From positions 868,001 through 932,000 of the forward strand of contig NZ_CANLWM010000001.1 in assembly GCF_947494875.1 (NCBI RefSeq): a stretch of DNA of 64,000 nt. Reading direction: 5' to 3'. A model generated the notes under the pieces. It worked only from the letters and a program-made list of their open reading frames with translations, searched no databases and was not told the origin of the DNA. The position numbers were made by a program, and so were the translations under genes. The DNA comes from an uncultured Williamsia sp. (GTDB lineage: Bacteria; Actinomycetota; Actinomycetes; Mycobacteriales; Mycobacteriaceae). Below are positions 24,231 through 25,212 of this stretch, piece by piece. Numbering within the stretch: position 1 is the stretch's first letter; every line of letters starts with the position of its first letter.

Positions 24231-24234
24231 CCGC

Positions 24235-24280
24235 TTCCGGTGTCGGTTCGTATCGCTCAGCGACACCCACGTGCACCAGA
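24235..24280. repeat. Palindromic repeat, left copy (next to DUF559 gene stop)
   Basis: 46-bp element ending at the base before the DUF559 stop codon. It is 39/46 identical to the copy at 25166. The centre is GTATCGC-TCA-GCGACAC (a 7-bp stem with one mismatch); the outer TTCCGGTG/CACCAGA arms are imperfect. It could also fold as a terminator for either neighbour. Confidence 0.85.
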
Positions 24281-25135
24281 TCAGCGGAGCGCATGTCGAA
24301 TCGTCGCGATGACCTGGTCCGGCCGCTCCGTGAGGTCGGCCCAGGTGAATCGCAGAACCGTCCAGCCGTTCGCGACGAGTGCGTTCTGACGGGTCCGATC
24401 GCGCTGGAATTCGCGCTGCCCGGAGTGGTACGCAAAGCCATCGATCTCGACGACCAGGCGTTGTGCGTCGAAGACGACATCGCCCTCATATCCACCGATC
24501 TCGACGCCGGGTCGCCATCCGGTGATCCCGGCCGACCGGAGTAGCCCATGCGCGATCCGTTCGGCCTCCGATCGCGCACCCGTGATGGCGGCATCGATGA
24601 GACTCGCCGCACGTGGGGCGCCGTGGCGACGCGGATACCGCGAGTGAACGTCGATGATCTCGTCGAGCCTGACCCGTCGGCGCAGCAGGGCGTGATCCAG
24701 AACGGCCGCGCCGTCCAGAACGGCCGCGTCGAGCACGCTCATCGGGATCGAGGTCACGACCAGCCCCTTTCGGCGCCGCACGTCCGACGGGTCCAGGTCG
24801 CGGCGGATCAGGGACAGTCCCGCGCGTCGGATGCCGTGCCGGCCCCGCGGCACGCAGATGGTGGTCGTCGCCGGGGGTCGTGCCAGGATGCCGTGCCACC
24901 ACGCCGCCGTCGGTCCTGCGACGACAGCATCGTCCCCGAGTTCGAAGACGATGCCCCGCAGGCGGGCTCGCGGGGTGGCAGGTCGATCTGCCACGAAGTA
25001 GACGCCGCGCCCGACGCGGATCCACGCGCCGGAGGCGACCCGACGCTGGACGGCGGCGCGGTTGATCCCGTGCTGGGCGGCCTGGGACAGCGTCACGACG
25101 CCGTCCTGCCGGGCGATGAGTTGCCGTAGATCCAC
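24281..25135 (-). CDS. AbiEi-like winged-helix plus DUF559 nuclease-fold protein, 284 aa
   Basis: Residues 1-50 form an AbiEi/type IV antitoxin-like winged helix (QDGVVTLSQAAQHGINRAAV, then RVGRGVY). Residues about 190-284 are a DUF559 domain of the PD-(D/E)xK/Vsr nuclease clan: GDVVFDAQRLVVEIDG supplies D219 or D223 with E230 and D232, followed by the FQRDRTRQNALVANGW helix and VLRFTWADL. It may cut or nick DNA. No cognate toxin or methylase adjoins it. The gene sits between two copies of a palindromic repeat, with the left copy abutting its stop and the right copy 30 bp upstream of its start. Confidence 0.85.
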   Translation of the reverse strand: MDLRQLIARQDGVVTLSQAAQHGINRAAVQRRVASGAWIRVGRGVYFVADRPATPRARLRGIVFELGDDAVVAGPTAAWWHGILARPPATTTICVPRGRHGIRRAGLSLIRRDLDPSDVRRRKGLVVTSIPMSVLDAAVLDGAAVLDHALLRRRVRLDEIIDVHSRYPRRHGAPRAASLIDAAITGARSEAERIAHGLLRSAGITGWRPGVEIGGYEGDVVFDAQRLVVEIDGFAYHSGQREFQRDRTRQNALVANGWTVLRFTWADLTERPDQVIATIRHALR

Positions 25136-25165
25136 ATCGATTGGACGCAGGTGTCACCACGACGG

Positions 25166-25212
25166 TTCCGGTGCGTGCTCGTATCGCTCAGCGATACCGA
25201 CGTGCACCGGAA
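25166..25212. repeat. Palindromic repeat, right copy (upstream of DUF559 gene)
   Basis: 47-bp nested palindrome: outer arms TTCCGGTGC and GCACCGGAA (9/9), inner arms GTATCGC and GCGATAC (7/7) around a TCA loop, separated by 6-bp unpaired stretches. Same orientation as the copy at 24235. It lies between the DUF559 gene start and the stop of the PPOX gene. Confidence 0.9.

Follow-up and report, generated by a model that had tools for sequence, protein, structure and literature searches.

Why should a single gene for a nuclease-like protein lie between two copies of the same palindrome? The question is raised by a locus of an uncultured Williamsia sp., studied here in a window of 64,000 nucleotides (the whole stretch of DNA that was analysed). 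Our answer, which rests on comparisons of sequences, is that the unit, i.e. palindrome, ECF-type promoter, nuclease gene and second palindrome, probably is a minimal selfish element whose protein would bind and cut the palindromes, spreading gene and palindromes alike.

The nuclease gene and its two palindromes

The gene (24281 to 25135, minus strand, GTG start) lies between a YibE/F-like gene and a PNPOx gene. It is flanked by copies of a 49-nt element at 24232 to 24280 and 25163 to 25211, 84% identical and in the same orientation. The downstream copy, 3' of the YibE/F-like gene, abuts the stop codon (junction 24280/24281), and the upstream copy ends about 27–30 bp before the GTG start; the original prediction had the same layout, with one copy at the stop codon and the other about 30 bp before the start. 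According to repeat and palindrome comparison in the window, the upstream (right) copy is a near palindrome with 27-nt arms that are 78% complementary around one base. Its perfect 9-bp outer arms (TTCCGGTGC/GCACCGGAA), 7-bp inner arms and TCA loop are the nested structure that had been described at the outset. The core GTATCGCTCAGCGAYAC, allowing up to 3 mismatches, is found in the window solely at these two places, each read on both strands (4 matches), as opposed to a mean of 0.51 matches in the shuffled window, where 0 of 100 shuffles attained 4. Genome-wide, the exact core is present at this locus only, and the wider element has two more copies, 76–78% identical and without a nuclease gene (C4:127443 and C7:124009).

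The 284-aa protein combines an AbiEi-type winged helix with a DUF559/MTES_1575 (EDxHD, Vsr-like) nuclease, as judged from profiles, fold and an alignment of homologs. Domain matches are AbiEi_4 at residues 2–46 (24998 to 25132, minus strand) and both DUF559 and REase_MTES_1575 at residues 190–283 (nuclease domain at 24287 to 24568, minus strand). In the predicted structure, which is confident (mean pLDDT 90.7), the N-terminal half is similar in fold to the AbiEi antitoxin 6y8q and to Mycobacterium tuberculosis Rv2827c (1zel). For the C-terminal part, the nearest solved nuclease fold is that of the homing endonuclease I-Bth0305I (PDB 3r3p), whose catalytic domain it resembles (profile E 5.5e-6; Foldseek 8e-5, TM 0.78 by target length). 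Residues E192, D219, E230, D232, H237 and D246 show no variation across 46 homologs, and we take them to be the EDxHD motif that PMC3943268 describes for a family of homing endonucleases. Decayed nuclease genes, with an in-frame TGA or a lost C-terminus, are seen at L040 (W. deligens) and L049 (G004), where the palindromes persist.

The winged helix raises the question whether the gene serves defence or encodes a toxin, in the manner of AbiE type IV or a Hhe-like nuclease, with the palindromes as marks of self or as control elements for the toxin. PADLOC does report AbiEi matches, and the nuclease domain has weak matches to Hhe/ProA. However, the latter score far under their cut-offs, and the likeness to AbiEi antitoxins of type IV toxin-antitoxin systems is in the N-terminal domain: here the C-terminus is a nuclease and no AbiEii nucleotidyltransferase toxin gene adjoins. 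Since the empty sites described below also follow the pattern of a mobile unit, we regard a defence role as quite improbable.

Matched palindromes around homologous genes

In other genomes, too, the homologs have a matched palindrome pair in most cases, and the sequence of the pair differs from locus to locus. The repeats are mostly palindromes of 40–70 bp. For each gene the upstream flank was aligned with the downstream flank, and the cut-off was the 99th percentile of cross-locus pairs. In a first homolog set 51 of 75 genes were above this limit, and in a second, named set, drawn from Gordonia, Mycobacterium, Mycolicibacterium, Pseudonocardia, Prescottella, Nakamurella and others and overlapping the first in part, 52 of 80 were beyond the cross-locus null. 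After removal of duplicates, 164 homologs from Mycobacteriales and neighbours remained; with flanks of 250 bp, 108 of them (66%) reach a score of 44 or more, and with wider flanks 113 (69%), as compared to about 2% of 455 controls, i.e. shifted frames along the same loci. A matched pair is absent in about 30% of the homologs. The proposed linkage between palindromes and DUF559 genes in related genomes is thus confirmed at about 160 loci. The outcomes that would have spoken against the original suggestion did not occur, as many loci and strains have palindromes and these are tied to DUF559 genes; they are, however, locus-specific sequences and not one motif.

Many palindromes are located 3' of the stop codons of convergent genes, as ordinary bidirectional terminators might be. 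Nevertheless, terminators, or chance, leave unexplained why pairs are matched within a locus and differ between loci while only 2% of controls score as high, and this explanation can hardly be maintained.

As for relative orientation, a direct arrangement of the flanking copies fits better in 54 cases and an inverted one in 35, with 14 ties. Distant homologs are bracketed as well, some of them by arrays of 21-bp repeats in place of palindromes. A second DUF559-type clade in the source genome (G000) consists of L008 (G000:C4:302885-303655), L009 (G000:C8:43266-44012) and L010 (G000:C2:52774-53547), all bracketed by locus-specific arrays of 21-bp repeats that are inverted left versus right. Another arrangement, unlike the usual palindromes, is found in Mycolicibacterium sediminis, where 356-bp, 99% inverted repeats surround a homolog (L318, 2600-2955 and 3841-4196). 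We do not claim selection on palindrome symmetry: between copies there were 110 double differences versus 59 expected, just 37 of them complementary, and compensatory changes are hardly above chance.

Covariation between the recognition helix and the palindromes

If the palindromes are targets of the protein, residues of the winged helix should change together with the bases. Among the Williamsia proteins, the helix NRSAVQRR and its near variants pair with the core GTGTCG/GTATCG, and the helix SSSAIGR pairs with the core TTCCCG, irrespective of locus. In a protein-wide scan over 66 loci, the correlation between protein-window similarity and palindrome-core similarity peaks at residues 20–35, the recognition helix (partial Mantel for residues 24–33: 0.13, permutation p 0.001). 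In the window protein the recognition helix region comprises residues 24–36 (25028 to 25066, minus strand), with a helix at 26–35 in the model, and residues 26, 27 and 34 covary with palindrome bases. The strongest of 1400 residue-base tests is residue 27 with base -1, which precedes the CG of the half-site (z 8.2 versus a 95% permutation maximum of 6.3). At residue 26, R/K is found mostly with G, S mostly with T, and E with C; at residue 34, R/K is found mostly with G. The window protein, with R26 opposite G and A27 opposite T, matches the predicted pattern. Under a stricter redundancy cut (n=35) the top z is 6.1 versus 6.4 for 95% of the maxima, which is not significant after correction, and residue 27 still ranks first to third. 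The covariation argues that the palindromes are the targets of the protein, and it is very likely that the nuclease protein recognises the palindromes flanking its gene through the winged helix, which would contact the half-sites.

Solo palindromes and empty sites

Eight Williamsia genomes were compared, the genus mates of the source organism being W. serinedens, W. maris and W. deligens. The core TTCCCGCTSAGCGGGAA is present in all eight and the core GTAGCAGTTCGTGTCG (GTAGCAG...GTGTCG type) in 7 of the 8, as opposed to 0–1 per strand for reversed-pattern controls of both. About 80 palindromes were extracted, 17 of which bracket nuclease genes, while approximately 63 are solo. At nine sites of the source genome, the presence of a palindrome varies among species. 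At site S1, for example, G000 and G002 share a palindrome behind one gene, where G006 has none, and at site S3 the palindrome families differ between species. There are also chimeric palindromes with one arm from each of two types; at site S6 the left arm is the same while the right arm of G000 differs from that of G002/G006.

The palindromes might instead be a REP-like repeat in their own right, which host replication or recombination spreads, and the nuclease gene would then do no more than insert or recombine at them. Solo palindromes do outnumber gene copies, several families coexist with a single gene, and palindromes have a common recombination point in their core. On the other hand, each gene has palindromes of its own, which covary with the recognition helix that it encodes, about two thirds of the homologs are bracketed by matched pairs, and no other REP-mobilising enzyme came to light: a profile search for the Y1/HUH transposase (PF01797) gave 0 hits in the 8 Williamsia genomes while positive controls were detected, so that the palindromes are REP-like repeats without a RAYT. 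We consider the independent repeat improbable.

Two further observations concern these genomes. A gene-less array of approximately 21-bp repeats (CAGTTGGGCACGTGAGTACGC) is present at L236 (W. maris, G007:C3:655692) and L240 (G001:C1:2350382), where other species have palindromes; possibly it is the solo counterpart of the iteron arrays. In addition, contigs C17, C71, C139, C205 and C226 of the Williamsia MAG G005 end close to these palindromes, which may break short-read assemblies.

The comparison of empty sites, which had been proposed at the outset, gave two kinds of answer. Behind fabH, at the fabH-prfC locus, palindrome-gene-palindrome is found in five Williamsia species (G000, G002, G003, G004, G006) and one solo palindrome in three (G001, G005, G007). 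At the SDR locus the roles are swapped, with the full unit in G001, G005 and G007 and a solo palindrome in G004. In contrast, at the window's own YibE-PNPOx site the relatives without the gene have no palindrome either, and the same holds for the gene-less genome at one site in a second genus. Homing into a pre-existing solo palindrome is therefore not the only route. The whole unit can thus come and go, and elsewhere one palindrome remains or precedes. The comparative sites thus support mobility of the unit, which we infer from them. In G000 and G002 FabH is extended at the C-terminus, its stop codon being supplied by the palindrome.

As regards the ends, the palindromes bound the unit, and no constant short target duplication was seen at solo or full sites. 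Gene locus and palindrome family cannot be equated as orthology, because the same locus bears different families. A phage origin of the nuclease gene was rejected: tblastn found nothing similar in 50,697 phage records, and no PHROG matched. Plasmids gave weak matches only, one of them near full length. A separate presence/absence difference is a 1.3-kb segment found in one genome only (L386 6571-7866 versus L384 9756; G008/G038), with a MarR-like regulator and an alpha/beta-hydrolase-like gene, both named by eye from their translations.

The promoter and the question of self-regulation

A GGAAC-N17-CGTC motif, which we take to be an ECF-sigma-type promoter, lies at 25144 to 25169 (minus strand), with its -35 box within the outer arm of the upstream palindrome. 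The motif (N16-18) is present in 107 of 155 homologs, compared to 0.66 in shuffles, and 81 of these 107 have a spacer of 17. Its conservation suggests stress-induced expression of the nuclease genes. The start codon often follows 8–9 nt after CGTC, a distance so short that the mRNA is probably leaderless. In matched loci a median of 12 bp separates the end of the upstream repeat from the -35 box, and in 65% of these loci the downstream repeat and the end of the gene overlap; at L007, L040, L064, L068 and others the stop codon is at the middle of the palindrome.

This anatomy would also suit an immobile system of self-regulation or insulation, in which an AbiEi-derived regulator uses the upstream palindrome as operator, both palindromes act as terminators or insulators, and the nuclease is otherwise used. 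The upstream palindrome adjoins or covers the -35 box, the downstream one falls on the stop codon, the winged helix is of AbiEi type, and covariation indicates recognition rather than cutting. Regulation alone is difficult to reconcile with gene-less palindromes at many sites, with their presence and absence between species, with solo palindromes at loci where relatives hold the gene, and with catalytic residues that are invariant in 46 homologs; we find it unlikely, even if less so than the other alternatives. The original suggestion of a small mobile or self-regulated unit gains support from the linkage of palindrome and nuclease, the solo copies, the palindrome-only empty sites and the helix covariation, its mobile part being deduced from comparison. 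The two roles could go together in the selfish element that we favour, as protein bound to the upstream copy next to the -35 box would probably repress the gene too.

A possible mechanism

In the selfish element, a dimer would bind the two symmetric half-sites of the palindrome, an arrangement that, with palindromes of 40–60 bp, would fit I-Bth0305I, a dimer on its target of nearly 60 bp (PMC3943268). Its two EDxHD nuclease domains would cut at or near the palindrome centre. Central cutting would free a half-palindrome-gene-half-palindrome, the donor would rejoin as one solo palindrome, and insertion into a cut palindrome would restore two full ones. The gene may thus enter or leave cut palindromes through joining of half-palindromes or through recombination over palindromes. 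Matched pairs, swapped halves and solo sites would all follow from central cutting and rejoining. Recombination between palindromes could equally produce all three, however, and the central-cut step leaves insertion at palindrome-free sites unexplained. Breakage followed by gene conversion might copy palindromes onto each other, which would explain the half-palindrome swaps and the species-specific arms.

A more tentative reading, to which we give slightly less than an even chance, is that these genes form a new class of selfish DNA. On this reading the winged-helix EDxHD nucleases would recognise their own target sites, whether palindromes or 21-bp iterons, cleave them and spread them. Cleavage at the centre, followed by rejoining of half-palindromes, would carry the gene from one palindrome to the next, and target specificity would switch via a few residues of the recognition helix.

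Comparison with known systems

It is useful to compare the unit with RAYT (TnpA-REP)/REP/REPIN systems (PMC2817692, PMC3116915). In both, palindromes bracket a single nuclease or transposase gene, solo palindromes are dispersed behind stop codons, and palindromes also form clusters, with apparent coevolution of palindrome and enzyme. The differences are as follows. Firstly, RAYT is a HUH tyrosine transposase whereas the Williamsia enzyme is a winged-helix EDxHD nuclease (AbiEi_4 + DUF559). Secondly, REPs occur in hundreds per genome and the Williamsia solo copies in tens or fewer. Thirdly, the Williamsia palindromes are longer (40–70 bp) and locus-specific. Finally, the REP pair is inverted, while here there is no fixed inverted orientation and the window pair is direct. 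The likeness to REP and RAYT that was noted originally therefore extends to the bracketing and the dispersed palindromes but not to the enzyme, no Y1 protein having been found in the eight genomes.

IS200/IS605 elements are minimal, hairpin-ended and have element-specific ends. The present unit shares these features and differs in that their Y1 transposase is absent here. EDxHD homing endonucleases (I-Bth0305I, PDB 3r3p) share the nuclease domain, homologous by profile and fold, and the catalytic residues. They sit in an intron or intein or split their target, whereas here the gene is intergenic with intact palindromes on both sides, and an AbiEi-type winged helix would read the DNA. In the way it would work, the unit resembles both RAYT-REP and a homing gene, yet it lacks a defining feature of each. 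The best explanation appears to be a system analogous to RAYT-REP but based on a nuclease of homing-endonuclease type. The open-access papers searched on DUF559/AbiEi with palindromes, homing or mobile elements yielded no description of such a unit, and a study of GTAG-tagged REPs does not mention these genera.

Site-specific nucleases with palindromic targets of about 50 bp could serve as tools, and the targets beside each gene document, across natural variants, how helix residues correspond to the bases that they read. For the biology of the family, the proposed element would be a non-HUH analogue of RAYT-REP in Actinobacteria, and the proposed role would give DUF559 genes, which are common and unexplained, a testable job.
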